The notes below the pieces were generated by a model. The model did no database searches and was not told where the DNA came from. It worked only from the letters and a program-made list of their open reading frames with translations. A stretch of DNA of 64,000 bases from Deltaproteobacteria bacterium (GTDB lineage Bacteria > Myxococcota_A > Polyangia > HGW-17 > SLPX01), in the NCBI GenBank assembly GCA_021162935.1, contig JAGGXR010000060.1:1-64000 (forward strand), written 5' to 3'. The translations under genes were made by a program, and so were the position numbers. Each line of letters opens with the position of its first letter. Within the stretch, counting starts at the first letter, position 1. This document shows, one piece after another, positions 15,575 to 34,157 of the stretch.

Positions 15575-15621
15575 CTTGGCGTATGTGGAAGGTGGTGTAT
15601 TCGGAGCAAGGAGTGATGTGC

Positions 15622-18204
15622 ATGACCAGGTCCGGTTTCTTGTTGCTGTCGATAGGAATGGGGCTATGGAGCACCGTGGTTTGGGGCCGTCCTGCGTCGG
15701 AGCCCGTTTCTGCGGCCAAGTTGGTGTCTAGGTTGGCCGTTCGAACCGATGCTGCCGGCAGCCTGATTCTGACAAGTGGGGCGCGGGTCCTGTTCAAAGG
15801 TGTCCTGTCGGTTCCCTTGCCCTCCAGTGGGAAGGGGCGGGTGGAATCGGTGCAGATTGCAGGTAAACCGGCCTATTTGGTTCGGTTCGATCCCATCGTC
15901 CGCTCTTCTGCGGCGGGACGATTGCACCAAGACGGCTCCGCCTCCCGCCGTCGCATCTCGGCCTTGATCGTGTCAGGGCCACGGCACAGGTATCGCGTGG
16001 CCTGGTCGGGAAAAACGGGGCCCATGGGCCCGGACGGAGAGTATGAGCGTCGTCTGACCCGACTGGGGCCCTGGGTGGTCCTGTATCAGGTCCGACCACA
16101 TCTCAAGCGCTGCGATGGTCGTCCGGTTCGGCTGTTCATGCGGGCGTATGACCCGAAGACGGGCAGGATGCGGCCCGTATCTCGGATGCCTGCCTATGAG
16201 AATGTGGTGGACCTGACGGCCCAGCCTATCGACGGTTCTGCCGGTACCCATGCGGTCGGTTTGGCACCCATGCGATTCGATTTTGCATCGACCCACGAAG
16301 GGGACCAGGCGCTGACCTCCAATCTGGTCATGCCCGTGGAACTCCAGGATCGACGAGTCGTCACGAGTTGGCGTGAAGGGGTCGGAGGAGCGGGCCGGGG
16401 CGTGTGGCTCAACGCTCATGGTCCAAGGTGGCCCTATGCATTGACCGGTTTGTGGTTCGTGCCGGGGGATGCAGCAAACGCTCGGGCCTTTGCAACGCAC
16501 AATAGACTTCGATCGTTTCTCGTGACCCTGGGAAGCAAGACGTATCGTGTGTTGATCCCGGCAGATCCTCTGTCTCACGGCGTGGGCGCCCGATATTTGG
16601 TTTCCTTTCCGACGCCCGTTCGGGCCGACTGTGTCACTGTGGTGGTCGAGTCGGTGTATCCTGGCTCCGACCAGCGGGCCGGTGGGAGCACCGCTATTGC
16701 AGAGATGCATTTTCTGAGCGAGTTGGATCGGCGCGGAGGGTTGGTGCGTTTGGCCAGGGACGTGGCAACGGGCCGCGTGGATCGAGACACCGCGCTGGCC
16801 GTCTTGCGATCGGCGGGACGGGCGCTCGTCCCCTCCTTGCAACGTGCTCTCGATGCACGAAGGGCCGTCGGGACGGACCTGTTGGCGCAGGCCCTCCTGT
16901 CCATCGATCCGGCAACCTCCGCTCGACTCGTTTCCCGCTTGGGTCGCCTCTCGGCGGGCACGCAGAAGATGCTGGTGGGGAGCCTGGCGCGATCCAAGGA
17001 CCAAAAGGGGCTGATGTCCGTCATGCAAGACGGGCAGGCGAGTCGGCAGGTCAGGGAACAGGCTCTCAAGTGGGCGGCATCGATGGGCGCTCCCGTTGCG
17101 TCGGTCTTCGTCGATTGGCTCGATCATGCAGTGGGCGGTGACGAGGAGCGGCTCGTGGCTCTCGGCACGCATCTGCCTGGGGTTGCGCTGCATCCCGAGG
17201 ATTTGCTTGTCGTGAAGCCGGCAAGGACGGTCCGTTGGGCGAATCGTTTCTGGCTCGCCGGATTGAGAGTGGAGGTCAACGGCAGCTTGGCGGGGCCCAC
17301 GGCGCGTCTGCTTGTTGCCACCCAGATGCCGGATGGATTTTCGGCCCGCTACCGGTACGTGGAAGCCTTGGGTCGCTGCCTGGCGGCTTTGGATCGTGGA
17401 CCGATGGCCCGGCAGGTGCTGCACCTGTTGGCATCTTGGGCGCGGCAGGGTCGCGATGAGCTGACCAGGTTCGTGGCGGTTCGGATGTTGGGGAAGAAGC
17501 GTTCTGCGGTGGGGTTCGTGCGACGGTTTCTTCGCGACCCGGCACCGAGGGTGCGTCTGGCCGCTTTGGGAGCTGTGGTGCAGTGGCATCCGAGTGAGTC
17601 GGGAAGGCGGCTCATGAGATGCACGATGCAGGACCCATGGCCCTGGGTGCGGCGGCATTGCAGCCTCATGCTGGCTGAGCGCTGTCCCGCCCGAATCGGC
17701 GCCTCTCTTGCCGCCGCGGTGCGAAAGTACGGGGTGGCCAAGACGATCGATTTGCTCGCGGTCCTGGCTCGTTGTCGCTATCCCGAGGCCCATGATGTGT
17801 TCGTGTCCCTTGCACGGAAACGCAAGGCTCTCCTTTCCGGGTCCGTGATTCACCTTTGGGCCTCCACGGGGGACCCCGCGGCGAAAAGGTGGATCGTGGG
17901 CCGAGTGAATCTCGTTTTGGCGGGAGGCAGGCGACTCGACCCGAGGCAGGATGCGAGGGCAGCGGATCTCATCGATGCCCTGGCGATTCAGGCTTCCGGG
18001 AAGGCGGTGGGTTCGACGCTGTCTTTGGTGACCAGGGCCGCGGCCATGCAACAGGCTCCGAGGATACAGATGGCGGCTGCCCGATTTTTGGCTGGTCTCT
18101 GTCCTGTGGGTGTCGATCGAATCGCTCGTATGCTGCTGTCCAGCCGTAACAGTGCCGTTTCACGGGCGGGCGATGACTTGCGGCGTCGGTGTGCACAGCG
18201 CTAG
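15622..18204 (+). CDS. Exported HEAT-repeat protein with N-terminal galactose-binding-like region
   Basis: Protein of 860 aa. It starts with a signal peptide (MTRSGFLLLSIGMGLWSTV..., about 28 residues). The first 370 residues are beta-rich and end with a segment (TVVVESVYPGSDQRAGGST, then AEMHFL) that resembles discoidin/NADase-type glycan-binding modules. From about residue 380 to the end it is made of HEAT-like helical pairs (for example DPAPRVRLAALGAVVQW). The ATG at 15622 has AAGGAG 8 nt upstream; upstream in-frame starts are less well placed. It is followed by a small membrane protein and a second HEAT protein, suggesting a set of envelope scaffold proteins. No enzymatic role is visible. 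Confidence 0.85.
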   Translation: MTRSGFLLLSIGMGLWSTVVWGRPASEPVSAAKLVSRLAVRTDAAGSLILTSGARVLFKGVLSVPLPSSGKGRVESVQIAGKPAYLVRFDPIVRSSAAGRLHQDGSASRRRISALIVSGPRHRYRVAWSGKTGPMGPDGEYERRLTRLGPWVVLYQVRPHLKRCDGRPVRLFMRAYDPKTGRMRPVSRMPAYENVVDLTAQPIDGSAGTHAVGLAPMRFDFASTHEGDQALTSNLVMPVELQDRRVVTSWREGVGGAGRGVWLNAHGPRWPYALTGLWFVPGDAANARAFATHNRLRSFLVTLGSKTYRVLIPADPLSHGVGARYLVSFPTPVRADCVTVVVESVYPGSDQRAGGSTAIAEMHFLSELDRRGGLVRLARDVATGRVDRDTALAVLRSAGRALVPSLQRALDARRAVGTDLLAQALLSIDPATSARLVSRLGRLSAGTQKMLVGSLARSKDQKGLMSVMQDGQASRQVREQALKWAASMGAPVASVFVDWLDHAVGGDEERLVALGTHLPGVALHPEDLLVVKPARTVRWANRFWLAGLRVEVNGSLAGPTARLLVATQMPDGFSARYRYVEALGRCLAALDRGPMARQVLHLLASWARQGRDELTRFVAVRMLGKKRSAVGFVRRFLRDPAPRVRLAALGAVVQWHPSESGRRLMRCTMQDPWPWVRRHCSLMLAERCPARIGASLAAAVRKYGVAKTIDLLAVLARCRYPEAHDVFVSLARKRKALLSGSVIHLWASTGDPAAKRWIVGRVNLVLAGGRRLDPRQDARAADLIDALAIQASGKAVGSTLSLVTRAAAMQQAPRIQMAAARFLAGLCPVGVDRIARMLLSSRNSAVSRAGDDLRRRCAQR

Positions 18205-18277
18205 AAAATCGTCGTGGGTTCATCGGAATCATAACGGACGAACAGAGCCCCCGATCGGGGTGGGAAAGGCAAACCTG

Positions 18278-18571
18278 ATGAGTCGACGCAAGCACGCAAA
18301 GCGAACCCCGTCTTCCGGCATGAAAAAGGCTTCGGTGCGTCTGACTGGTTGGAAGAGGCGTTTGGCAGCAGACAGACCGATGGACGCCGCGGTCGGGGCA
18401 GCGTTCTGTTGGTTGCTCGGGGGCGCCTATGTGTTTTGGGGGTTGGAGTGGCAGGCCGCCGTGTTGTCGTTGGTGGCTGTTCTCGTGTCCGCAAGCGCCT
18501 GGTTCGGCCGCATCCAAGGAGCCAGTGCGTCCGGATCCGTCCGGACTTCCGGAGCTGGCAAGGGATCATGA
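18278..18571 (+). CDS. Small membrane protein (97 aa)
   Basis: Starts with MSRRKHAKR, a strongly basic N-terminus of about 35 residues, then two closely spaced hydrophobic segments (about 39-74: DAAVGAAFCWLLGGAYVFW and AVLSLVAVLVSASAWF) and a short Gly/Ser-rich tail. AAAGG precedes the ATG at 18278. The TGA overlaps the ATG of the next HEAT-repeat gene (ATGA at 18568-18571), which suggests translational coupling. No family recognised; it may help insert or anchor its HEAT-repeat neighbours, which is inference. Confidence 0.65.
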   Translation: MSRRKHAKRTPSSGMKKASVRLTGWKRRLAADRPMDAAVGAAFCWLLGGAYVFWGLEWQAAVLSLVAVLVSASAWFGRIQGASASGSVRTSGAGKGS

Positions 18572-21108
18572 GCCAGCCGAGACAACGAGAGAGGTGTCCC
18601 GATGCAGACAACGGACGACGGGGATCCGGAGACAGCGCCGCGACGACCAGCCGGCATCACGTGGTCGTCAGGGTCGTGGTGACCGTTTTGGGCGTTGCTG
18701 TCGCTTCGTCGGCATTGGCGCAGACGCCTGCACGTCCGGGACGCCGTGGGAACGGTGGGAAGAATCGCCTGGGAAGCATGGGCGGCATGGGGGATCGTGA
18801 TTGGCAGAGCTTCCAACGCAGGCTCCGGCATCGGCCGGGGCCGAGGCGGTCGATCAGGTTGTCGCACGCTCTGAGGAATCGGATCGAAGAGGAACGCCGC
18901 CAGGCGATTGTCAGGCGTCAGCACCGTATCGACGCCATGCTGCACAAGATTGGAGTTCGGGCTCGGTACGGACGGTCGCAGCGTCGTATCGTCATTATAC
19001 GCCGGATGGCAGACCTCAAGTCCGATGATCCGCACGTTCGCGCCCAGGCGGCCTGGTGGCTCGGGTCTCACCATGCGAAGGCGGCTGCAGGAGCGTTGGC
19101 GCGGTTGCTCAAGGATTCCAGTGCGGTGGTTCGGGCAAACGCCATCTATGCCTTGGGGCAGCTTCGTGTTCGACATTTGGGCTCCGCTCTGTTCGACCTG
19201 CTCGATCGAGACAAGTCAGCCGATGTTCGGGGTCGGGCGGCGGAGGCTCTTGGGCGTATCGGGTACCGGCGTGCCATTCCGTTGCTTCTGTCGCTGCTGC
19301 ACGCCAAGGACACGAGGCTCAGGACTGGTGCCATTGAGGGACTGGGATGGATGGCTGACGTTGCAGCCGTTTCTCCGCTCGTGCGATTGACGCGCGCCAA
19401 GGATGCGCAGATTCGGATGCGCGCGGCGAGGGCGCTGGGACGGGCTGGATTCGCCCGGTCGGTTCGGCCGTTGTTGCATCTGCTCGACGATTCGGATTCC
19501 ATCGTGGTGGCGACGGCTGTGGATACGCTTTCCCGGTTGAAGGCAAAGGCCTTGGTGAGTCGTCTGCCGGCTTTGTTGAGGCATGCCCAGCCCAGGGTGC
19601 GGATTGCCGCCGAACAGGCTGCGGTGGTGTTTCGGGCGAGCGCGCTCGTGGGAAAGATTTCGGCCCTGGTGCCCGATCGTTCTCCGCTCGTTGGCTGTCA
19701 GGCGGCCCTGTCGCTTGCGCGACTCGGCGCCAAGATTCCTAGGCAGGGGCTGGCTGGTCTCCTGGGAGACCAGGACAACCGTGTCCGGATCATGGCGGTG
19801 GAGGCTGCTGGTCTGTCCGACGCACGCTGGACCATTCCCATCGTTCTCGGTTTTTTGAAGAAGGGATATGAGGACCTGCGTCGTGTTTCGGCCCGGGCCC
19901 TCGGACTGCTGGAGGCTGGCGAGGCGGAAGGGAAACTCCTCGCACTCCTCAAGGATCCGTCTGCCCCGGTTCGTGCTGCAGCGGTCGAGTCGCTCGGACT
20001 CGTCGGGGGGGCCAGGGCGCTAGCCGCCTGCGAGGTCCTGACCGCGGATCGCGATCCGGACGTGGTGGTGGCCGCGGTCACCTGTGTGGCCAGGCGGGCC
20101 GCTGTTGCTCCCGAACTCGCTACTCGATCGGTGCGCCAGATGCTGCGGTTGCTTCGGTACAAGACTCCTTGCCACCTTTCCGCCCCAGCGGCTCGTGCCC
20201 TGACCGCTTTGAAGGTCAAGGGAAACAGGACGGCTTTCTTGCGGGTCGTTCGACTCACCCTGAATGACGATCCGGTTTGTCGAGCCGCTGCGGCTTGGGC
20301 CCTTGGTTTCGTCGCCGTCGGCCGAGGTGCCGAAGCCGTGTCGGCATTGGATCGCCTTTTGACCCGGGACCACGATATGGATGTTCGGGTGCGTGCTGCG
20401 CTCGCTCTCGGATTGCTGGGTCGCAGGGCGTTTTTGGGCAAGATGTCCGAACTGTTCCATCATCAGGTTTCCAAGGCGTCGAGGGCCCGGCGATTTCTGG
20501 TCGCGTTAGCGATGGCCCTCGTCGAGCCAAGTTGGAGGCCTCGGGTGGCTAGGCTGTTCCAAGAGGCGGTGTGTGGTCCAATTCTGAGCGTGGAGCAGGT
20601 CCGCCTCGTGGAGATGCTGGGCAGGCTTCAGTCGGCTACGAGAGCGAAGTGGATCGAAGCGCTCGTTGAACGGTCCCTTTCCTGTCCGGTGGCGATGGTC
20701 CGAGCCAGGGCGCGGATGGTGCTCCGTCGGGCGCCTCCTGCTTATCGCCCCGGTGCTGCAGGCCTCCTGGTGACGCACGGAAAGGCTGCGGGCGCGACCT
20801 CCAAGAAAAAGGCTCAGGCGTCCATGGCCCCCAGACGCTTGCGCCGGCAGCGCCCGGATGCGGATCTGACAGGGCCCTTTCCGATGCCCCACGGTTCTTC
20901 GGGTTGTGGATGTAGCCTGCTCAGCGCCGACAGGAACGAACGAGTCATCCCTTGGTTGCTGCTTGGTCTGCTGTTTCTCGGTCTTTTCTTGTGTCGAGCC
21001 GATCTCGACATCAAGAAACGAATGGTCGGACGCCCTTGTGGGGCAGACGAGCGGGATGCACGCGAGGGCGCCCCACAGCAGGATGACAAGCACAGGGGAT
21101 GGTCATGA
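18568..21108 (+). CDS. HEAT-repeat (PBS-lyase-like) protein with N- and C-terminal membrane segments
   Basis: Protein of 846 aa. The N-terminus is polar, then a hydrophobic segment (about 30-50, ending SSALAQTPA) that is a late signal peptide or anchor. After a basic linker, residues about 145-780 are tandem HEAT repeats with the PBS-lyase-like pattern DxxVRxxAAxALGxxG (for example SAVVRANAIYALGQL, SADVRGRAAEALGRI, DAQIRMRAARALGRA). Near the C-terminus is a transmembrane helix (VIPWLLLGLLFLGLFLC) and a charged tail. The start overlaps the previous stop (ATGA), with AAGGG upstream; the open frame extends to 18349 without support. The stop overlaps the Nudix gene in the same way. Likely an envelope-anchored protein-interaction scaffold. 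Confidence 0.87.
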   Translation: MSQPRQRERCPDADNGRRGSGDSAATTSRHHVVVRVVVTVLGVAVASSALAQTPARPGRRGNGGKNRLGSMGGMGDRDWQSFQRRLRHRPGPRRSIRLSHALRNRIEEERRQAIVRRQHRIDAMLHKIGVRARYGRSQRRIVIIRRMADLKSDDPHVRAQAAWWLGSHHAKAAAGALARLLKDSSAVVRANAIYALGQLRVRHLGSALFDLLDRDKSADVRGRAAEALGRIGYRRAIPLLLSLLHAKDTRLRTGAIEGLGWMADVAAVSPLVRLTRAKDAQIRMRAARALGRAGFARSVRPLLHLLDDSDSIVVATAVDTLSRLKAKALVSRLPALLRHAQPRVRIAAEQAAVVFRASALVGKISALVPDRSPLVGCQAALSLARLGAKIPRQGLAGLLGDQDNRVRIMAVEAAGLSDARWTIPIVLGFLKKGYEDLRRVSARALGLLEAGEAEGKLLALLKDPSAPVRAAAVESLGLVGGARALAACEVLTADRDPDVVVAAVTCVARRAAVAPELATRSVRQMLRLLRYKTPCHLSAPAARALTALKVKGNRTAFLRVVRLTLNDDPVCRAAAAWALGFVAVGRGAEAVSALDRLLTRDHDMDVRVRAALALGLLGRRAFLGKMSELFHHQVSKASRARRFLVALAMALVEPSWRPRVARLFQEAVCGPILSVEQVRLVEMLGRLQSATRAKWIEALVERSLSCPVAMVRARARMVLRRAPPAYRPGAAGLLVTHGKAAGATSKKKAQASMAPRRLRRQRPDADLTGPFPMPHGSSGCGCSLLSADRNERVIPWLLLGLLFLGLFLCRADLDIKKRMVGRPCGADERDAREGAPQQDDKHRGWS

Positions 21109-21752: not shown

Positions 21753-23276
21753 TCAGCGGGGTTCGCCGTGGTGCCCGAGATGATGCAGTCCGCCATGGTG
21801 AGGCACGATGGGACGTGCGGCCGGCCGGGATGACTCAGCGGGCACGGCCATCCCCGGCTGGGCAGCGGCTCCATTTGGATTCGTTGCTCCACCTGGCTGA
21901 GAGGGTGTTCGGGTAGCCGCATTCGACGATGCTGGCAGGGTGGTGAGGCATTGGCGCACCTTGGCAATCATGGCCGCCTGGGCAGCGTGGTCGGCGGTGA
22001 GCAGGTCGATGTCGAACTTCTTGTGACAGATCTTTTTGAGATGCTGGAGAGCCATGTCTCGGAATCCAGAAGGAGCATTGGACGCCAGGACCTGGAACAG
22101 CATTTTGCTGCCGGCTTTCGGGTCGATCTTGACGGCACGTTCGGCCACGGCGATTTTTCCATCCGGAGTTTTGGATGCCTGGAATAGTTTTTGGAGCTTC
22201 AGGATATTCTTGCTGTGCTTGAGCGCTGCTGCTTTGGCATCCATGTCCATGTTGTCATATTCTTGAGTGGCGGACAGCTTTTTGTGATGTGGGCCATGCA
22301 TCCGGACGCCTGAGTACTCTCCGTGGGTCCAGTGATGATTGGACAGGATGACTTTCTTGAGGCCTTCGAAATAGAGAACCACGAGGCCCAGGGCCAGGAT
22401 GCCCAGGGCGAGGTTCCGTAGGGCCTTGATGTGGTTTTTTGCTCGAATGACGTAGAGGCTGAGGGCCACCAGGAGCAGCACGATTCCGTAGAAGGCCACC
22501 ACGGCGGGGCCGGTGGGCAGGTCGAGCCAGTAGCTCAATGTCAGACCTGCCATGCTCACGATGGTCCCCATGATCCAGCCGATGATGAGTTGATTTCTGA
22601 ACTTGTCCGTAATGGCGGCGCCGATGACCGCCGGGACCACGAGGAACACGAAGACCAACAGGAGACCAGCAGTGTTCACTGAGATGGTGATCACGAAGCC
22701 AAAGGACATGTAGAAAAGTAGGTCCCAGAAGGCCACGTTGATGCCTTTGGCCTCCGCCTCTTCGGCGTTGTTCGTGATGGCGAGGAACTTGTCGCGAAAG
22801 ATGTAGTGGAACACTCCGATAGCAGCATAGGCGATCGCTGCTTTGATGACCTCGCTGCCTTTTACCAACAGGATGTTCCCCGTCGTCATCATTTCTTTGA
22901 TGTGTTCGGCCCCGTGAGGCGCCCGGTCTATGACCAGGATGACCAGAGCGGCTGCCAGGGCATAGACCAAACCAATGATGGCTTCTTGGGGCACGTGTCG
23001 CTTCTTGGTTCGAGTCAGGGCAAAAATGGCAGCTCCGATGAATGTGAAGGACAAAGAGAAGAGAAAAGCTCCCGTACTATGGGGATGGATGCCCGCCAGG
23101 AATCCGGCGGTGGTGCCCAGGGCTGCAATCTGCGCCAGACTCAGGTCCACGAAGATGACCTGGCGCCGGATGACGTGAAGCCCCAGGTAGGAATGGATGC
23201 CCACCAGGACGAGACATTCTGCAAAGGGAATGGCCATGAGGCGCCAGGGGCTGATTGTGGCAAGGACGTCAAACAT
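21753..23276 (-). CDS. ABC-3 family metal (Zn/Mn-type) permease with His-rich C-terminal extension
   Basis: Protein of 507 aa. Residues 1 to about 300 form an ABC-3/ZnuB-type permease with eight or nine hydrophobic helices; diagnostic pieces include RRQVIFVDLSLAQIAALG and TAGLLLVFVFLVVPAVIGA. This half should move Zn2+ or Mn2+ across the inner membrane. Known ABC-3 permeases are about 260-300 aa, so the last 190 residues are extra: a His-rich segment just after the membrane domain (NHHWTHGEYSGVRMHGPHHKK), a helical region, a Pro/Ala/Ser linker and a terminal HHGGLHHLGHHG tail, presumably for metal sensing or buffering (inference). The ATG at 23276 has AAAGGAG 8 nt upstream. It is the last gene of the metal locus, and no ATPase gene adjoins it. 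Confidence 0.9.
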   Translation of the reverse strand: MFDVLATISPWRLMAIPFAECLVLVGIHSYLGLHVIRRQVIFVDLSLAQIAALGTTAGFLAGIHPHSTGAFLFSLSFTFIGAAIFALTRTKKRHVPQEAIIGLVYALAAALVILVIDRAPHGAEHIKEMMTTGNILLVKGSEVIKAAIAYAAIGVFHYIFRDKFLAITNNAEEAEAKGINVAFWDLLFYMSFGFVITISVNTAGLLLVFVFLVVPAVIGAAITDKFRNQLIIGWIMGTIVSMAGLTLSYWLDLPTGPAVVAFYGIVLLLVALSLYVIRAKNHIKALRNLALGILALGLVVLYFEGLKKVILSNHHWTHGEYSGVRMHGPHHKKLSATQEYDNMDMDAKAAALKHSKNILKLQKLFQASKTPDGKIAVAERAVKIDPKAGSKMLFQVLASNAPSGFRDMALQHLKKICHKKFDIDLLTADHAAQAAMIAKVRQCLTTLPASSNAATRTPSQPGGATNPNGAAAQPGMAVPAESSRPAARPIVPHHGGLHHLGHHGEPR

Positions 23277-23292
23277 GGGAATCACTCCTTTG

Positions 23293-23331
23293 GTCGATGC
23301 TGTTTGTCGATGTTGTTTGTCGATGTTGTTT
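23293..23331. repeat. Three tandem 13-nt repeats between binding-protein and permease genes
   Basis: GTCGATGCTGTTT, GTCGATGTTGTTT and GTCGATGTTGTTT (plus strand) occupy 23293-23305, 23306-23318 and 23319-23331, followed by a partial TCGACG. They lie in the 96-nt gap of a minus-strand operon, about 17 nt upstream of the permease start, so they would be in its mRNA leader. Confidence 0.7.
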
Positions 23332-23372
23332 TCGACGTGATTCTTGGAGGCGACGGGGTTGCCCCGATGAGT

Positions 23373-24446
23373 CTACTGGATGACGCCTGCTCGCTTGTAG
23401 GCGCGTAGCAGGGTCTTGATCCAGTGGTCCACCAGTTTGAAGTAATTCGTGATGCCGGGTTTGCCCCGCACGGAGTAGGACACGATGGCTTGGACGGCGC
23501 CCACGCGTCGGCAGATCATGCGGACCTTGGATTCATCGTAGAAGTTTGCCGCCAGGATGACCTTGACCCGGTCCTTGCCCATGGTGTTGATGAGGGATCG
23601 GATGCTCTGGGGCGACGGCGGGATGGCCGGTTTGGGTTCCACTTCGCGGATAACTTTCAACCCGAAGGTCGTGGTGAAGTAGATCCAGTTTTTGTGGTAG
23701 GTGACTAGCTCTTGACCCCACAGGGGGAGGGCCTTTTTGCCCCAGCCTCCCAGCAGGGCAATGAGACTTTGGCCACGGTACTTATGACTCCGCAGGAAGG
23801 GGATGAGCCGGCCCTTGACCGTCAGTCTCGTCAAGGTTCCCGAGCCGAAGAGCTTGAGGAGTTTGGGCCCGAACATGGCCACGTCGATGCGGTGGTTGAG
23901 GCGACGTGCACCCTGCTTGAAGCCGCTGCAGTCGTCTGGATCCACCTTGCACAGGCCGATGGCGATGTTGCGTGCAATCATTTTGGTGTTCATGGGACTC
24001 GTGTAGATGTGCGGGTTGCCGAAGAGATGCACACCTCCTTGCGCCCGACTCTTCGACGTTGGGATCTCGAGGAGGTGGATGCCGTCGTAGACCGCGATGT
24101 AGCCGACCTGACCCTGGCGGAGCTTGCTGTTCATGGACCGGTCGATGAGGCTGGGCGCCCACAGTTCCAGGTCCAGACCCGTGCCCACGAAGGCGTCCGC
24201 TTTGGACAGTTTGACCGCGAAACTTGGTTTGGGTCGCACGAAGTGAGGGTCTTCGTCGCCCTTCGTCACGTAATCCACCTTAACAAGGCTGCCGCCCACG
24301 TATTTGACGATGTTGGCGTAGGTTGGGTTCGAGGCTATCACGTAAAGATGTCGAGCTTGGGCACCCCGAGACCAGCCCATGGTGCCGGCCGCAAGGGCTG
24401 CCATGAAGGCAATCGACGTGAGCTTCATTGTTTTGTAGTGACGCAT
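23373..24446 (-). CDS. Zinc/manganese ABC transporter substrate-binding protein (ZnuA-like)
   Basis: Periplasmic protein of 357 aa with a signal peptide (residues about 8-31, ending GAQA). It belongs to the cluster A-I metal-binding proteins. Four ligands can be placed: His68 in EDPHFVRP, His146 in GNPHIYTSP, His251 in TYHKNWIYF, and Asp304/Glu305 in NFYDESK. The His-rich acidic loop of enterobacterial ZnuA is absent, and two to three Cys (CKVDPDDC) sit in the linker region. The ATG at 24446 has GGAGGAA upstream. It lies between the porin and permease genes. The ligand set does not distinguish Zn from Mn with certainty; three His plus an acidic residue is seen for both. Confidence 0.9.
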   Translation of the reverse strand: MRHYKTMKLTSIAFMAALAAGTMGWSRGAQARHLYVIASNPTYANIVKYVGGSLVKVDYVTKGDEDPHFVRPKPSFAVKLSKADAFVGTGLDLELWAPSLIDRSMNSKLRQGQVGYIAVYDGIHLLEIPTSKSRAQGGVHLFGNPHIYTSPMNTKMIARNIAIGLCKVDPDDCSGFKQGARRLNHRIDVAMFGPKLLKLFGSGTLTRLTVKGRLIPFLRSHKYRGQSLIALLGGWGKKALPLWGQELVTYHKNWIYFTTTFGLKVIREVEPKPAIPPSPQSIRSLINTMGKDRVKVILAANFYDESKVRMICRRVGAVQAIVSYSVRGKPGITNYFKLVDHWIKTLLRAYKRAGVIQ

Positions 24447-24493
24447 GATATCTTCCTCCTGTGGCGACCGGGCTGGCCGATCACCGGCATGTT

Positions 24494-25999
24494 CTAGTAG
24501 CGGTCATGTTTGTGCGGACCGGCAGCGAAGACGACCTGCACGATGGCCCGATGCGCGCCCTTGATGAGATCGCCATCCATGTAGTTGTATTCCAGTCTGA
24601 TTTTTGCCCATGGGCTCTGCCACCAGGTTAGGTACGGCGCCACCTCATAAATGTAATGGCGGCTGTTGTTCTGATCGAACGGCTGGACGAGGTCGACCCT
24701 CGTTCCGACGTCGATCTGCCTGCTCAGCTTGGCCTGCAGGTAGCTGTATCCGCCCATCCAATGAATGGTCTGCTTGCCGCCGAACGTATCGTCGGACAAT
24801 TGCTTATATCCATAGAGAAACTCGGTGCGCCAGATGACGTTGTGGTACTTGGCCTGATTGATCGGTTCCCACTGGATCGTCAGGTCCGCACCGCCGAAGG
24901 TCGTCACGCGGATTTTTTCGTCCGTGACAGCGGTCGGGCCCGTCGGCGTCACGGCGAGGTCCACTTGATTGCCGTTTGCATCATAGACGTTGAACGGCGT
25001 CTGTCCGGCTGTGTCGCTGAATAGTTTGGTTTTGCCTAGTTCGCCTCTGTGGTTGTTGAACCCGACAATACCAGTCAGTCCCAGTTCGAGGTACGTGCTT
25101 CGGGTCAGATCCCAGTAGTTTTTGAAGTGGAGTAGGGTCGTGGGCAACGAAAAGTAGTCGCCAGCAAAGGCTTTTTTGTTCATGCCGTTCGTGATCTGGA
25201 GATAGAGTTCATTCGCATCGGCGATGAAATGAGGAATCAGGAATTGGAATGACACCCCAAGCTGATTCAGTCCTCCCCCTCCGAAGGGTTGCTGGAGCAT
25301 GAGGGGATAGTCGTACTGGTCCAGTGCGTGCTTGTGCCACCGGTTGATCACTCCGAGTTGTTGGCGAAATTTTCCCGCCATGATGTTCATGATGCCCGCC
25401 ACGTCGGTCCAAACGACGTAGGCCTCGCCGAACGCGACCCCTTTAGGTGAGACGGACACGGCTGCCTTCATAAAAGAGAAGGGGTCCAAAACGCTTTGGA
25501 AGTGGAATCCCAGACCGCGGAAGCAGAACCCGGACCGTTCGTCACTGCCGTACTCCTTGCCGTTCGACCAGTAGAACACGCCGCCCAGATCGCCCGTGAT
25601 CGAGATTTCCGGGTTGAGGCCCTGTAAGGCTCGTGAGTGCCCAACGAACGTCTTGAGCTTGAACGTCTCTTCTTTTTGTGGTGCAGCAGCAGCCACCTTT
25701 CCTTCCATGACGATCTGTTTGATCTGCAGGTCGTCTTGACCTTGCTGAAATGCCTTGAGTCTACTTTCCAATGCTTTGACGCGCTTTTCCAAGGTCGAAA
25801 TCACAGAATGCGCAGCCGAGGTCGCCGCAGCAGCGACGGTCGATTCGGTCGTCGTCGTCGATGTCGCGTCGGTTGCTGCACTCTGTCGGGGCGCGGGTCG
25901 TGCTTGGGTCGGATGTTGGGCCATGGCTGCATTTTCCCACGCCACACTGAAAAGCAAGGACGCAACCAGTGCAGCGGTTCGAAATCGTAGGGTCACCAT
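24494..25999 (-). CDS. Outer-membrane porin-like beta-barrel protein of the metal locus
   Basis: Protein of 501 aa. Signal peptide MVTLRFRTAALVASLLF... ends at AMAQ. A Thr/Ala-rich stretch is followed by a short coiled coil (about residues 60-95: VISTLEKRVKALESRLKAF), as in phosphate-selective-porin-type or OprO/P-like trimers. The rest alternates amphipathic strands rich in Tyr, Trp and Gly (YLQAKLSRQIDVGTRVDL, KIRLEYNYMDGDL) and ends in an aromatic-near C-terminus, as in outer-membrane barrels. The ATG at 25999 has GAGGAGG upstream; the longer open frame (to 26200) would bury the signal peptide. The position next to the ZnuA-like gene suggests that it admits metal or a metal complex. Confidence 0.8.
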   Translation of the reverse strand: MVTLRFRTAALVASLLFSVAWENAAMAQHPTQARPAPRQSAATDATSTTTTESTVAAAATSAAHSVISTLEKRVKALESRLKAFQQGQDDLQIKQIVMEGKVAAAAPQKEETFKLKTFVGHSRALQGLNPEISITGDLGGVFYWSNGKEYGSDERSGFCFRGLGFHFQSVLDPFSFMKAAVSVSPKGVAFGEAYVVWTDVAGIMNIMAGKFRQQLGVINRWHKHALDQYDYPLMLQQPFGGGGLNQLGVSFQFLIPHFIADANELYLQITNGMNKKAFAGDYFSLPTTLLHFKNYWDLTRSTYLELGLTGIVGFNNHRGELGKTKLFSDTAGQTPFNVYDANGNQVDLAVTPTGPTAVTDEKIRVTTFGGADLTIQWEPINQAKYHNVIWRTEFLYGYKQLSDDTFGGKQTIHWMGGYSYLQAKLSRQIDVGTRVDLVQPFDQNNSRHYIYEVAPYLTWWQSPWAKIRLEYNYMDGDLIKGAHRAIVQVVFAAGPHKHDRY

Positions 26000-26011
26000 T
26001 TGGACCTCCTC

Positions 26012-26025
26012 AATACAATTGTATT
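26012..26025. promoter_or_regulatory. 14-bp perfect palindrome upstream of the porin gene
   Basis: AATACAATTGTATT reads the same on both strands and ends just upstream of the porin ribosome-binding site (GAGGAGG). Such AT-rich palindromes at metal-uptake genes are often operator half-sites of metalloregulators. It does not match a Fur or Zur consensus I know, so the regulator is unassigned. Confidence 0.45.
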
Positions 26026-26124
26026 CAACGTGGATCGGCACTGCGAAGCGCTTACGTCCATATTCCGCCTCGGACTGGCCGGCGTTGCCAGTTGTCGGCT
26101 TCTCCATTGGTGCCGAGAGAATTT

Positions 26125-26493
26125 CTACAGGAAGGAAGGTGGCGGCGACCCTTTTGGGGCCTGCCGCAGGAGGAGATTCCTGGAGGCTGCCGGGTTGCAA
26201 ACGAATTCAGGCTGGATCGTACCGACTTGGGTCAGGACTGTAACCTGCGCCTGGTTCGTTGGCCGGTCGATGCTCGAGCACACCAGAGCCGCCAGCCAGC
26301 ACTGCTCGTGGTCATCGTCTGGCGTGTCCTTGTCGTCTGAATTCCCCAAAGGTCCCTTATGGGGATGGATACGCTCGAACGTGTGGTGGACCTGGCAGTA
26401 TCGGTGCGGCACCGTTGCCAGGTGCAGGTATGGATAGATCGGTCCTTCAAGAAGCAGAGCCAATCCAAAAATCTGTACGAAGATCCGCCGCAT
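26125..26493 (-). CDS. Small exported His/Cys-rich protein upstream of the metal locus
   Basis: Open frame giving 122 aa from the ATG at 26493. The N-terminus (MRRIFVQIFGLALLLEGPI) looks like a signal peptide or anchor. The mature part has ordered His and Cys residues: HLATVPHRYCQVHHTFERIH, then an acidic patch (DDKDTPDDDHEQC) and CNP later. The spacing HRYC-x2-HH and HEQC suggests metal or disulfide chemistry. No convincing ribosome-binding site is seen (CCCCTC precedes the ATG), which lowers confidence. It points the same way as the porin, binding protein and permease and ends 125 nt before the porin start, so it may belong to the same locus. Confidence 0.45.
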   Translation of the reverse strand: MRRIFVQIFGLALLLEGPIYPYLHLATVPHRYCQVHHTFERIHPHKGPLGNSDDKDTPDDDHEQCWLAALVCSSIDRPTNQAQVTVLTQVGTIQPEFVCNPAASRNLLLRQAPKGSPPPSFL

Positions 26494-26815: not shown

Positions 26816-29800
26816 TTACCTGAGCGCTTCGAGGTCGACGATTCGATCCTGGGTGACGAACCACAGTTCCATGCGGACGTGGCGCTCGGGATGCGCCTGG
26901 GCGACGCATTGGGCGTAGAATTCGATTTGGGGGCGATAGGCCTTTATGTGGCGGTTGAGATCGGAGGCGCCTTCGATGCGGTCCGTTTTGTAGTCAGCCA
27001 CGACCCATGTGTTGCCCGTGGGGTCGGCTGGGTCTTCGTAGAACAGGTCGATGGCTCCGGTCACGTGACTGATGGGACCGAGGTGCGTTGGTGCCTCTGA
27101 CCAGGGATGGGCGAGGTCCACCGGACCCAGGACGGGGAACTCACGGCCGATGATGTGGCCCGCCAGGCCAACGAGTCGCTCCATGAGTGGGCTCGGTTTG
27201 CCGAGGTGGCGGAGAATGTGGGTGGCGTCCTGGAGGCAGGCCGTTCGTTGTGCCTCGGAGAGGCTTGGGGTTGAGCCCGTCAGCCGTTCCATCCGTTCGA
27301 GTTGGCGGGCCACTTCTTCATCCAGAGTGCGTTTGAGGTCCCAATGTTCCAATGCGTCGTGGATCAGGGTTCCCACGGCCATGGCGGTGCCTCGGTCCAT
27401 GAGTGGATCCGGCGAGAGACGGTCACGGGCGTCTGATTCCACTTGCAGCTTTTCTGTGTGTCGAAAGAGGACCTCGACTCGGCTGGCGACACGGCTTGAT
27501 GCCGGTGCGGACAGGGGGTGGCGCATTCGCTCATGGGCGCGATTCTGACGTCCGGCCAGGCTGTCGATTCGATCCTTTGCTTGATTCAAGAGGTGGTTCC
27601 ATTCCGACGTATGAGAGCCACTGATCGGCTGGACTTCGGTGCGCGCCGTGGAGCCAGCGAGCCCCTGCCTGCTCTGTTCCAGTTCCCTGACGGTGAAGCG
27701 CCAGCGGATCGCTCCACTGGGTGGCTGGGCCTCGTGGACTTCGGTGCTGGCTTCGCCTTTTGTCGGCCCCGTTCCGAAGAGGGGAGCATCCGGGTCGTTT
27801 TTGAGCCTGGGTTCGAGGAGACCAAGGAGGCTGCCATGACCGGATTTGTGGTCCCACCACGGAATCTTGCCCACCAGGACGAGGCGATTTTTCGCTCTCG
27901 TCATGGCCACGTAGAGCAGGCGGATGGCCTCGGCCTCCTCGACCCGTTCGGCTCGAATCCGCGTCGTTTCGTAGTTCCAGGACCGATGGCCGAACAGACG
28001 GAAATGCCACTGTCCCTCCATTTGGACGAACACAGGAAGGAGGGACTTGTTGTCCGATCCCTTTTTGTGGTGGATGTTGGCAAGGTAGACGTGATCGAAA
28101 CCAAGACCCTTGGCGCCGTGGATCGTGGTGACCACGACGGCGTCACCGGATGTGTCGGCGCGTTCGGCTTCTCGTTCCGGTGCCTGATCCTGAATGGCGC
28201 GTCGTAGGGTCTCGACCAGGGCGCGTGGCCTGCCTGCTTGTTCTTCCATCTGTTCGGTGAGTCTCGTGAAGAATCGGTCCAGGTTCGCCAGACGATGGGG
28301 GCCGGCGAACCGTGCGGCTGCCAGTGGCTCTGTAGGCAGGAGGCGACGCATTCGATCCACAAACTGGTCGGCCGTGGCGCTTCGGGCGATGCGCCGCAGG
28401 TCGGCGATGGCTGCCAGCGTGTGCTGCGCGGCCTGCGGCCATCCAGCGATGCGATCCATGCGTGGGATGTCCCTGTCACGAAGGGTGTGTTCCGTCCGCG
28501 TGATGAGACGTTCCACAAGCCCGAGGATCTGGGCGTCGGCTTGCTCGTCGGGCGACCCGAGGCGGCGGGTCAGGTCCGCGATTCCAGCCTCCCACAGAGG
28601 GAGCAGGGCCGCGTCCGGTACCCCGGCCAAGGGGGAACGGAGTAAGGTGAGCAGCGCAACGTCATCTGTCGGGTCGAAGATCGTCTGACAGGCAGCCGCT
28701 GCTTCGATGACCTCGCGACGTTGGTAGTAGCCGTGGCTTTTGGCCATGGTGTACGGGACGTCTCGGCGCTTGAATGCCTCGAGATACTGATCCGCGGCTG
28801 TGGTGGCTCGCAGGAGGAGCGCCATCTCGTTCCAGGGGACACCGGACCGGTTCAGATCGGCCATGTCTCGCGCGATGACTTCGGCTTCCACGGCCTCGGC
28901 GTCCGCGTTGTTCCATGACGTGATGATCGTTTTTTCGTCTGTGCGCTGCGCATCGACTTCCGATTCCTGTTCGTTTGTGTTCGTTTTTTTATCAGCCTTC
29001 CGTTGCTTGTCGATTCGCCGGTCGCTCGTCCAGTATTCCACTGCTCGACGAGGGGCATCGGGATCCTCGTCGCTTCGGTGGGCCACGAGGGGCTCGAAGG
29101 GCGGCTGGATACCGGATTCCTCGTTCATGATCGGCTCGATGACCCGTTGGACCTCGTTCAGGATGGGTTGAAGGGATCGGAAATTGCGATGGAGCGTGAC
29201 CTTGTGCCCGCCCGATAGAACGATTTTCTGCACGAAGTCATCGTAGGCGGCAAGGTCGGCGCTGCGCCAACTGTAGATGGACTGTTTCGGATCTCCTACC
29301 AGGAAGAGTTTGGGCCGCTTCTTGCTGGGACCGGTCAGGGCGATGCTGCGCAGGATGTCGCATTGTTCGGCACTCGTGTCCTGGAATTCATCCACCAGAA
29401 TTTGATGGATGCCGCCCCGGACCATGGCTGCTACGCGAGGGTGGTCCCTCAGGAGCGTCCCGGTACGGACCAGAAGTTGCTCGAAGGTGATGGAGCCCTG
29501 CGCCTCCATGGCGCTCCGTGCCGCCCACAGCGTGTCTTTGATGACAGGCAACGCCTGTTCGACGAGGATGAGGCCGTTGATCCTGGTGGTATCGAATTTG
29601 TCCAGCAGAGACAGGAACGGTCCTGCCCACTCAGCGATCCAATCCGGGCCATCATTTCGATCGGGTGGAAATAGATTTTTTTCCGTGTTGGTGACCTGAC
29701 GTTTCTTCCATGAATGAAGTTTGCTCATCCCCGAAGCATGTTCCTGAACCGCGTTGTTGATGCGCCTGGCGAACGCGATCAGACCGGCAAGGTCTTCGAA

Positions 29801-30661
29801 GGGACCGGCGCTGATGGACGGAATGGTCCTACAGATGTTGAGTGCGTCGAGGGCGCCCTTGCGACTGCCGGACCCTCCTTCGATGAGGGCACCCATCGTT
29901 TCGACGAATGCTTCGGCCAGCCTCTTGAGTTCGACCTGCGATCGAGTTGCTTCGTCCAGATCCAGGGCCGGCCCTTCCAGGGCTTGGTCAGGAATGGCAT
30001 TCTTGACGAGATGGGTCACCACCTCGACGATGGCGTCTGCTCCGACGCCCTGGATGGCCAGGTGCGCTTCGGTGTCGTCGTCGCTGTATCGTGTGACGAC
30101 GCGGTCGCGTACCACAGTCGTCACGATCCTGTGGACCTCCCGGTCGTCGGGTTGAACCGACACGTCCGGGGGGAGACCGGCTTCGATGGGAAACTGTCGT
30201 AGGAGGGTGAGGCAGAAGGAATGGATGGTGGAGATGCGCAGATGTCCCACCGCGCCGAGCAACGCTCTGGCACGCTGCTGCAGGTCGTGTGCAGGCTCAT
30301 GGAGCGCTTCGGAATCCACGGTGACGGGCAGTTCGCCGTCGCGAGTGATGTGCAACAGGTCGCCCGTGACGCGCGAGAGCATTTCAGTGGCTGCGGCGTC
30401 GGTGAAGGTCAGTGCCACGACCCCGCCTGCCACGGTCCGTGCGATGGCGTCCGGGGACCTTTCGGGGCCGGCTTCCGTCTCGGCCCGAGTCCAGCCCCTA
30501 CCCAGACACCAGACCAGAATGCGCGCCGTCAGGATTGCGGTCTTGCCGGTCCCGGCGCCCGCCTCCACGACCAGCGGATTTTCGAAGTCTGTTTGAGCTG
30601 TTCGTCGCGCCTGCGAATCCTGTTCGAGGAGGATCGTTGCCTGGTTCTTGCTTCCAGTCAC
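26816..30661 (-). CDS. addA: AddA/RecB-like UvrD-type helicase-nuclease
   Basis: Protein of 1281 aa, the motor and one nuclease of a double-strand-break end-processing complex (AddAB/RecBCD type). Superfamily 1A helicase motifs: Walker A EAGAGTGKT (33-41), VALTFTDAAATEM, ILVDEFQDTSAEQ (Walker B), LVGDPKQSIYSWR, TTIHGAKGLGFDHVY and LLYVAMTRAKNRL. The C-terminus has a PD-(D/E)XK nuclease with GAIDLFYEDP and WVVADYKTDR followed by QIEFYAQ. The GTG at 30661 has AAAGGAGGACGCTC before it and overlaps the stop of the upstream AddB-like gene by 4 nt (GTGA), implying coupled translation and a stable complex. The name AddA is preferred to RecB because its partner carries an AddB-type Fe-S nuclease. Confidence 0.92.
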   Translation of the reverse strand: MTGSKNQATILLEQDSQARRTAQTDFENPLVVEAGAGTGKTAILTARILVWCLGRGWTRAETEAGPERSPDAIARTVAGGVVALTFTDAAATEMLSRVTGDLLHITRDGELPVTVDSEALHEPAHDLQQRARALLGAVGHLRISTIHSFCLTLLRQFPIEAGLPPDVSVQPDDREVHRIVTTVVRDRVVTRYSDDDTEAHLAIQGVGADAIVEVVTHLVKNAIPDQALEGPALDLDEATRSQVELKRLAEAFVETMGALIEGGSGSRKGALDALNICRTIPSISAGPFEDLAGLIAFARRINNAVQEHASGMSKLHSWKKRQVTNTEKNLFPPDRNDGPDWIAEWAGPFLSLLDKFDTTRINGLILVEQALPVIKDTLWAARSAMEAQGSITFEQLLVRTGTLLRDHPRVAAMVRGGIHQILVDEFQDTSAEQCDILRSIALTGPSKKRPKLFLVGDPKQSIYSWRSADLAAYDDFVQKIVLSGGHKVTLHRNFRSLQPILNEVQRVIEPIMNEESGIQPPFEPLVAHRSDEDPDAPRRAVEYWTSDRRIDKQRKADKKTNTNEQESEVDAQRTDEKTIITSWNNADAEAVEAEVIARDMADLNRSGVPWNEMALLLRATTAADQYLEAFKRRDVPYTMAKSHGYYQRREVIEAAAACQTIFDPTDDVALLTLLRSPLAGVPDAALLPLWEAGIADLTRRLGSPDEQADAQILGLVERLITRTEHTLRDRDIPRMDRIAGWPQAAQHTLAAIADLRRIARSATADQFVDRMRRLLPTEPLAAARFAGPHRLANLDRFFTRLTEQMEEQAGRPRALVETLRRAIQDQAPEREAERADTSGDAVVVTTIHGAKGLGFDHVYLANIHHKKGSDNKSLLPVFVQMEGQWHFRLFGHRSWNYETTRIRAERVEEAEAIRLLYVAMTRAKNRLVLVGKIPWWDHKSGHGSLLGLLEPRLKNDPDAPLFGTGPTKGEASTEVHEAQPPSGAIRWRFTVRELEQSRQGLAGSTARTEVQPISGSHTSEWNHLLNQAKDRIDSLAGRQNRAHERMRHPLSAPASSRVASRVEVLFRHTEKLQVESDARDRLSPDPLMDRGTAMAVGTLIHDALEHWDLKRTLDEEVARQLERMERLTGSTPSLSEAQRTACLQDATHILRHLGKPSPLMERLVGLAGHIIGREFPVLGPVDLAHPWSEAPTHLGPISHVTGAIDLFYEDPADPTGNTWVVADYKTDRIEGASDLNRHIKAYRPQIEFYAQCVAQAHPERHVRMELWFVTQDRIVDLEALR

Positions 30662-33600
30662 GAGCGTCCTCCTTTCGTTTTCTTGGCCGTCATTCCTGCG
30701 AAGGTTTCCTGCCACCATTTAGGCTTTTGGTTCGTTTCTCCCTTGCGGAGATCGTCGGCCCATCGGTCGAGTCGAGCCGCAAGGCTGGTGTCCAGGCGCA
30801 GACAGACGGGGCGTACGGAGCACGAGTCGCACATGATGCGCGGTTTTATGGGAATCGGAGGAAACAGTCCCCGACTCAGGCCGTCCATGAACGGAACGAC
30901 CCGTTGCTCGAAGGTATCGGCGTGGGCCGCCTTTTCTTCGGGGCCGAAGTCGATACGGCGATCCGCATCGTCCAGGTCGGGGGACAGGTAGAGATAGCGG
31001 CCCGATGCATCGTTTCGGGCCATTGCATACGCCATGGCCTGAAACCGTCCATCGTTGAGCATTTTTTGCGGTTTGCTTTCGTTCTTGTTGGGACGTTTGC
31101 CTGTCTTGTAGTCCACCAGGAGAACCGAGTCTGCGACTCGGTCCACTCGATCCGCTCGGAATCGGAGTGTCCGGCCGTCGACCAGACAACTTCCGCTGAT
31201 TTCGCATCCAAGGACGAGAGGCGGATCCTCAGCCCAATCGGAGGTCCTGGCTGCTTCGAGGAACCTGGCGACCTTGCCGCGGAGCACGACCTCGAGCCGT
31301 TGTGCATCCAGGCCGGCCTTGGCGAGTTGGTCACGGCATGCCTGATCCACGATGCGTTCGAGACGCTCCGGTTCGGGCCAGGATATCGGGGTCGGTGTCA
31401 CTGTGACGATTTCATCGAGATTCCCAGGCCCATGCTGCCCTGTTTTTCTCGCCGCCTGCGGGAGTTGGTCGCTGACCAGCAGTTGGAGCGCCTTGTGGAG
31501 GGCAGCGCCCACCAAGCTTGCCTCCAAGTCCAGGGAGTCTCCTGCCGGAGGCTCGACGCGCAGGACACGATCCAGGAACGTCCGCCATGGACAGTGCGCC
31601 ATGGCTTCCACCTGGGTCACCCAGGACGCTGCCTTTCGGTTGTGGAACACGAGGCCCAGATACGGACCTGGACCGCTGTCCGGATGGGCGTCCTGTTCTG
31701 CCAGGATGTTCAACCTGGCCCGAGCAGGAGTCGGCTCGATGCGTTTGGACGGGTTGGCCTGATGCGTGGGAGATGCGTTCGGCCCGTCCACATGGCGGGT
31801 GTCCTGGATTGCCTCTCGTTCGGCCTGGTCGAGAAGCACGACCAGGTTCGACGAACGGACTTTGGAGCCGGGATTCGCCAGTGCGTCCAGGATAGCCAGG
31901 TCTGCGGCGTCGCGCAGAGCCAGGATGTCGGAGTCGTTTCCGTCGTGGCTCGATTGGATGGCCTGGGCCAGGGCGGTCGGGGCGGGATGCTCGATGGGCA
32001 CTCGGACGACCTGGTCGTCGCCGATATTTTGGACGAGTCGAAGCTGTTCCACCAGAGGCGAGACAAGCAGGTTCGTCTCTTCGTTCGAGGTGAGGTTCCA
32101 GGAGAGATGGACATTGGGCGCAGCGGACAGGAGTTGATCGAACAGGTACTGGTCCTCGGTGATGCCCTCCATTTTGATTGGGAGATCACCGAGGACGGGT
32201 CTGAGGAGGATGCGTATACGATCGGGAAGGAACAGATCTTCTGTGGCCTGTCTGGGAAACAGACCTTTGTTGAGCCCCACTAGGAACAGATGCTCGAACG
32301 TACAGGCTCTGGCCTGGGTCACGGTCATGATCTGGACGCCGCCTCCGTTGCCGCCCAGCGCCGTGCGCCCCACTCCGTCGAAATGCGCCTGGACGGCAGT
32401 GAAGAACTCCTGCTTCGAGATGGGGAGAGCCGGTGGAAGGAGTTTGGAGAGTCGGCGTGGATCGAAGAAGGCTGCGAATTCGGTCTGATCTCTGCATCCC
32501 GAGACCGGACGGTTCTCGCTGGGGGGGCAGTCACTCCACCAATCGAGTTTCTTGGTGGCCAGAGTTTCGAGCAGTTCGACGTGCTCGGCGAACGTCGCTT
32601 GTCTCGGCCAGTTGGCAAGCATGTCGTCGATGGCTGCGAGACGCTCGAGCCATTGGCGGACGGTTGCGACGGGGAGGGTGCGACCGTGGCGGGACGTCTC
32701 ACCGTTTGGGTCTCCGTCTGGGTCCACATAAGGCCGGATGGGCAGATCTAAAGTGTCTCGGTCCATCCAGGTGCGATCCATGAGGGCCATGGCCTCGCTC
32801 AGGTCGCCGAGGTGATGGATGCCCAGGATTTGGCAGGCCTGCCATAGGTCGGACCAAGCAGGTCCTGGTTCGTCTGTTGTCGAGGGTGCGAGAAGGCTCG
32901 GGCCCTGGAGCAGAAGGTCTGTCTGTGCTTGGCTTCCCTGTTGGAGTAGGTCGCACAGCGCCTTGAGTTTCCTGCCCAGCGGAGCGATCGGCCCACTGTT
33001 GGTTCGGGACAGTCCCGGTGCGTCCGAGGGGTTCGAATAGGGGATGCCCATGCGGGAAAAGAGCGTTCGGATCGGCGCCACGTAGGCAGACAGGTCTCTT
33101 GCCACCACAGCGATGGACTCGGGCAGGACGCCTTGGTCCAGGCGCGCTGCAATGGCGAGCCCCACGGCGCGGATTTCGGCTCGAGGGTTGGGCGCCGAGA
33201 CAAAGGAAAATTGGGAATGTGGATCCCGCACGCCTGGGTGCGAGGCATCCTGTTCGCCCACGTCTTCTTCCCCCGGCGGTGGGGACGGAAACGTTTCCAG
33301 CAAGGAGAGTCGTTCCTGGAGACGATTGGTGAAGGACCAGGCAGGGTTGGGGCCGTCGATCGCGGCCGTGTGGCTGACGGGGAGATCGAGGAACAGGGCC
33401 GTGTCCCTGTGCCGGGTCAACGCTTCCATCAGATCCAGGGCCGCTCCGGTTGCGTCGGAGAAGCCGTAGACACAGAAGCTGTGCCCCTTGCGCCAGCCCG
33501 CCGCAATCTGCTCCACCGCTTGGGCCGCTCTTGCATAGAGGTCCGTGCAGGGAGGCAGGATCTGCGCCTGCTTCGACACGGCCTGTGCGATCCGGATCAC

Positions 33601-34134: not shown

Positions 34135-34157
34135 GGGCATCCTTTGGCGAAATCAAG

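Follow-up and report, generated by a model that had tools for sequence, protein, structure and literature searches.

Importers of the ZnuABC, MntABC and PsaABC type (the MZT family) combine an ABC-3 permease with a substrate-binding protein (SBP) of the ZnuA family and belong to the ATP-binding cassette (ABC) importers, for which the ATPase is the defining component. One study gives znuABC for all the delta-proteobacteria that it covered and proposes porins for iron, not for zinc (PMC545781), and another records a single Mn/Zn/Fe permease for Myxococcus xanthus (PMC3924187). Here we describe a locus in a 64,000-nucleotide stretch, hereafter the window, of contig JAGGXR010000060.1 from a Deltaproteobacteria bacterium, which has in common with those importers the ABC-3 permease and the ZnuA-type SBP, but is accompanied by a porin and lacks an ATPase gene. 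Porin, SBP and permease form a three-gene module conserved without ZnuC across the phylum, and the most economical and best reading of the sequences would be that of an ABC-3 importer working without an ATPase.

The first-pass annotation of this DNA had described four co-directional genes with no ATPase among them or next to them. Both statements stand: open reading frame (ORF) calls and the sequence place the four genes on the minus strand (Table 1), and no ABC ATPase was found in any frame of the window or in the 20 kb that follow it on the contig (84,171 bases), so that the dedicated ABC ATPase that characterizes a ZnuABC-type importer is found neither at the locus nor on the contig. The permease and the SBP were assigned by Pfam (Table 1), and the porin-like and small His/Cys proteins gave no Pfam match above cut-off. 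A profile of the permease, searched against solved structures, gave matches that include PsaC-type and ZnuB permeases, and it matched Escherichia coli ZnuB with an hhalign probability of 96.9. ATPases were scored with a profile (A1) built from six of 20 control loci, which were ABC-3 loci of other types in the same set of genomes. An adjacent ATPase was present in 19 of the 20 controls, with A1 scores of 177-440 bits, and in 13/14 (177-363 bits) when the six source loci were removed; the control without a visible ATPase (L059) lies in a short stretch, and E. coli ZnuC scored 163 bits. A normal partner would therefore usually have been seen.

Of 317 genomes belonging to the class, 23 gave a match to the permease at E<=1e-40, as did 48 of 377 drawn from the phylum. 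The clade members analyzed, gathered by similarity to the window permease at this same threshold, amount to 69 loci (68 fetched plus the window) in 67 genomes. A porin was identified in 66 of these loci and an SBP in 68, in the order porin-SBP-permease, and the exceptions (L068, L222, L257) are all at contig ends. No ZnuC-type ATPase was found beside the permease in any of the 69 loci, and in 44 of them the flanks could be read for at least 1.2 kb in either direction. Three stretches (L232, L234 and L258) contain generic ABC ATPases, with A1 scores of 92-120 and always on the opposite strand. A separate gene call followed by clustering recovered the porin in 65 loci, the SBP in 63 and the permease in 64, as the sole families recurring as a unit, and showed no other gene family that is constantly present in the flanking DNA. 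When flanking genes able to energise the permease were sought, only three families outside the module recurred, in 6 to 10 loci each: that of the small His/Cys protein and two that were named by eye, one response-regulator-like and one PAS-sensor-like. Gene order, which the first-pass annotation had proposed to examine, is thus kept among the relatives rather than lost in all of them. In the permease tree the members form one clade (support of 100 in the SH-like approximate likelihood ratio test, stem 1.24), although this monophyly is partly built in, since similarity to the window protein was the criterion by which the members were chosen. No relative was found among plasmid records at E<=1e-20. 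The porin had been considered uncommon for this family of transporters. It does belong to the module, but it is not unusual here: the loci L072-L077 have ATPase, permease, porin and SBP together, and the porin is therefore not peculiar to the ATPase-less form.

Some irregular copies of the permease were also noticed. In L223 (984-3298) a single SBP and a single porin precede two tandem clade permeases, with open frames of 715 and 325 aa, which could possibly form a heterodimer. Stops interrupt the clade permease reading frames in L201, L215 and L216, perhaps pseudogenes or assembly errors, and a metagenome-assembled contig of Thermoanaerobaculaceae (Acidobacteriota) carries a permease fragment without porin, SBP or in-frame 5' part, which may reflect decay or misassembly.

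The permease could be energised in trans, as had been suggested for this locus, if it borrowed the ATPase of a different type II importer. There is a precedent in Staphylococcus aureus, where FhuC energises IsdF, HtsBC and SirBC (PMC10147376). The genome of the window (G000, 97.1% complete) contains one ABC-3 gene in total and 37 PF00005 matches, and the search for a ZnuC-like ATPase that the first-pass annotation had recommended gave a single near-ZnuC scorer, at C81 (160.8 bits; runner-up, 116). This ATPase is encoded between a binding-protein-like gene and an FecCD permease with eight transmembrane (TM) segments, the only FecCD-type cassette of the genome, and therefore has a partner of its own, yet it is possible that the window permease shares it. 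For a wider view, 48 of the 67 module-bearing genomes were surveyed, picked mainly for completeness. At least one FecCD permease is present in 32 of them, whereas none was detected at E<=1e-25 in the remaining 16 (14/37 among the genomes with completeness of 90% or more and contamination of 5% or less). The same 16 genomes, listed as 90-97% complete, gave no A1 match at 1e-36, their best ATPase reaching merely 105-127 bits, and each has exactly one ABC-3 gene, the clade permease. A type II ATPase elsewhere in the genome is thus not a constant companion of the module, one third of the surveyed genomes (16/48) showing no candidate. Five module-bearing genomes (G035, G027, G039, G037 and G036) have no further ABC-3 system accompanied by a ZnuC-scoring ATPase, and there the top-scoring ATPases adjoin permeases of 8-9 TM segments in FecCD-type cassettes. 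In L123 (4862-9151), a CbiM-type energy-coupling factor (ECF) cassette for metal transport, including an ATPase of its own, appears by eye to be present in the same genome as a module.

The segment where an ATPase would dock also bears on this explanation. The AxxxG of the IsdF coupling helix is required for FhuC binding, as judged by double substitution in the same study (PMC10147376). The equivalent segment of the clade permease (Table 1) was matched by alignment, not by structure, and its conservation was compared between the clade (n=69) and ATPase-coupled permeases (n=31), after dropping the near-copies C_L095 and C_L053 and the sequence B_L076, gapped at that point. A or G at 177 together with G181 was kept in 30/31 ATPase-coupled permeases and in 52/69 clade members, and gaps were present in eight clade members versus none of the ATPase-coupled proteins. 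Mean entropy of the segment was 2.34 bits in the clade and 1.80 in the ATPase-coupled set, while the rest of the domain followed the reverse trend (1.52 and 2.14 bits, respectively). With sequence weighting, the alignment windows starting at positions 168-172 occupied ranks 1-5 of 234 in relative loss of conservation. Sharing of an ATPase may hold for the window genome and has in its favor the 32 genomes with FecCD permeases and the members that keep AxxxG, but recruitment in trans is not supported as a general answer, because no FecCD permease, second ABC-3 gene or ZnuC-scoring ATPase was found in 16/48 genomes; the relaxed and sometimes gapped docking segment also argues against it. Furthermore, loss of AxxxG is not clearly more common where FecCD is missing, so that its retention seems untied to a FecCD partner. 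On balance we regard a shared ATPase as unlikely, although it deserves serious attention.

A second set of changes affects residues of the presumed metal path. According to two reports, MntC requires Asp47, His51 and Asp94, and PsaC uses Asp46 and His50 (PMC8487065, PMC11779740). In all 69 clade permeases Gln52 occupies the position of the MntC/PsaC histidine, Asp47 lies one place before the usual aspartate, and His37 and Glu101 are invariant. H37 and D47 are specific to the clade; the position aligned with Glu101, taken from the alignment to be that of MntC Asp94, is Glu or Asp in 28/31 ATPase-coupled relatives. In the SBP, which has an insertion of around 50 aa with respect to ATPase-coupled relatives, His68, His140, His146, His251 and Glu270 are invariant in 12/12 aligned sequences. 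We take His68, His146 and His251 to be metal ligands, and because these likely ligands are kept the metal is probably a divalent transition metal; zinc would be a guess by homology.

The interpretation that we favor, by a modest preponderance of the evidence, is that of a system derived from the ABC-3 (Zn/Mn-type) importers but devoid of an ATPase, in which SBP-dependent metal uptake would be driven by the membrane potential and by buffering of the metal in the cytosol. From the features described we infer import, its direction, the metal and the driving force. The porin would admit the metal to the periplasm, where it would be bound by the His-rich small protein and the SBP; the permease, which is presumably dimeric, would pass it into the cytosol without ATP hydrolysis. 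When free zinc in the cytosol is buffered at a very low level and the membrane is negative inside, a divalent cation can move inward along a downhill path. The driving force would be the membrane potential and tight buffering of the metal in the cytosol, perhaps together with a coupled ion, and the whole would work as a secondary transporter that depends on an SBP and uses the fold of an ABC importer. Whether this amounts to a further class of SBP-dependent transporters, beside ABC, tripartite ATP-independent periplasmic (TRAP) and tripartite tricarboxylate transporter (TTT) systems, is to our mind evenly balanced: after a single loss of the ATPase, an ABC-3 clade would have reshaped the metal path around new invariant residues (H37, D47, Q52, E101) and turned into a potential-driven uptake route from porin to cytosol. 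If the proposal is true, a clade that keeps SBP and permease under strong selection without a motor throughout the phylum would show, as an experiment of nature, whether the transmembrane domain of an ABC protein is able to act as a secondary transporter, and would change the annotation of ATPase-less, 'incomplete' ABC operons; the same fold can be compared directly with and without ATPase in related bacteria.

Several observations weigh against an ATPase-independent importer. The window permease itself retains A177 and G181, as do the other members counted above, and loss of AxxxG shows no link with absence of FecCD (kept in 11/16 loci without FecCD and in 27/33 with it; Fisher p 0.47); the docking segment has thus relaxed in the clade, though not everywhere. 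The genome of the window does have a FecCD-type ATPase, and in L258 a generic ABC ATPase (A1 score of 120) is located around 150 bp downstream of the permease, on the opposite strand. As for the genomes without FecCD, 12/16 come from a single family (f50) and the remaining four from four families, and they are therefore not 16 independent cases. Seven of the 32 FecCD-bearing genomes also gave no A1 match at 1e-36, so A1 alone cannot exclude FecE-type ATPases, and their exclusion rests on the absence of FecCD permeases.

An unrelated ATPase could also have been recruited. It seems improbable to us that the permease is powered by an ATPase from some other class (ABC-2 type exporter, LolD, MlaF or Opp-like) or by an energiser that was not recognised. 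Every genome has many ABC ATPases, as exemplified by the PF00005 matches in the window genome, and a new coupling interface would account for the altered segment; however, this segment varies inside the clade with no settled new motif, no ATPase family recurs at the locus, and the ATPases that score highest in the 16 genomes mostly adjoin a multi-TM protein of their own, although some do not (TM counts, by eye). We see very little likelihood in a permease that no longer imports, with the SBP-permease pair acting as a metal sensor, scaffold or efflux valve. The lack of an energiser and the HEAT-like C-terminal domain of many members, which could bind partners, would agree with such a role, but there is strong conservation of the SBP histidines and of the core of the permease, the porin is linked in every case where the contig extends far enough, and some short members are entirely devoid of the extension, which fits transport better than signalling. 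Finally, a mere artefact of assembly or search, suggested by the fact that all the genomes are drafts in many contigs, has a negligible chance in view of the loci with both flanks visible and of the completeness of the window genome and of the 16 genomes mentioned above.

The coordinates of the features in the window are collected in Table 1.

Table 1. Features of the porin-SBP-permease locus and their positions in the window.
Feature	Position	Strand	Basis
Small His/Cys protein	26125..26493	(-)	ORF call, sequence
Porin-like outer-membrane protein	24494..25999	(-)	ORF call, sequence; kept partner in relatives
ZnuA-family metal-binding protein (SBP)	23373..24446	(-)	PF01297, E 6.1e-39, 134.5 bits (model cut-off 29)
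ABC-3 permease, full gene	23276 (or GTG 23285)-21753	(-)	ORF call, sequence
ABC-3 permease domain	22461..23276	(-)	~residues 4-275, counted from GTG at 23285; PF00950, E 3.7e-30, 105.8 bits (model cut-off 20.1)
Putative ATPase coupling-helix equivalent	22731..22778	(-)	permease residues 170-185, AxxxG = A177/G181
Permease C-terminal extension	21753..22433	(-)	one extra hydrophobic segment, then HEAT/alphaRep-like helices

The permease owes its length of 507-510 aa to the HEAT-like C-terminal extension beyond the ABC-3 domain. Its profile gave alphaRep matches at profile positions ~329-428, HEAT_2 was found in the relative L071, and the extension is absent from short clade members such as L227. 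An AlphaFold2 model of the permease, with one relative as input, reached a mean predicted local distance difference test (pLDDT) score of 44, too low for a fold search. Two long open frames (873 and ~900 aa) adjoining the locus, at 15583-21108, appear by eye to be rich in HEAT-like repeats, as the permease extension is. The porin-like protein has a signal peptide, a coiled-coil-like N-terminal part and the C-terminus ...GPHKHDRY, and the last residue is Y or F in 43/65 of its relatives. A perfect 14-bp palindrome, AATACAATTGTATT, is located directly upstream of its start, at around 26010-26030; it was considered as a shared operator and rejected, since it does not recur in other loci. The small His/Cys protein has an N-terminal TM/signal anchor, an HRYCxxHH motif, a His-rich middle and a C-terminal APKGSPP tag. 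Small upstream proteins with N-terminal TM and C-terminal APKxSPP are encoded in 28 of the 58 related loci having enough upstream sequence, and those that are His/Cys proteins make up an unnamed family beside these operons, with sub-threshold matches to DUF2946 in two of four members scanned. Further upstream, at 26816-34140, two very long minus-strand genes resemble by eye a helicase-nuclease pair of RecB/AddAB type.

A literature search returned no description of an ATPase-less ABC-3 system, which is weak evidence of novelty because its coverage of subscription papers was slight. Compared with ZnuABC, MntABC and PsaABC, the locus described here has no ATPase, has a porin in the operon, and shows an altered version of the Asp-His pair of MntC and PsaC. 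Also close are the operons L072-L077 of the same phylum, with homologous porin and SBP and a related permease, which differ by their ZnuC-like ATPase (415-440 bits); L072, L073, L074 and L077 have the order ATPase-permease-porin-SBP, and L075 and L076 have other orders. Among ABC-type subunits, the ECF S component BioY, when solitary, reportedly transports without its ATPase, and the same is said of ATPase-free CbiMN and NikMN, although these have a different fold and neither SBP nor porin. The FhuC-dependent IsdEF, HtsABC and SirABC are likewise type II importer operons without an ATPase (PMC10147376), but they have a known partner ATPase, whereas no candidate of type II was found in a third of the genomes tested here. 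Transporters of the TRAP and TTT types are also SBP-dependent and ATP-independent (PMC9352664); their membrane proteins are unrelated to the one described here, which is an ABC-3 permease.

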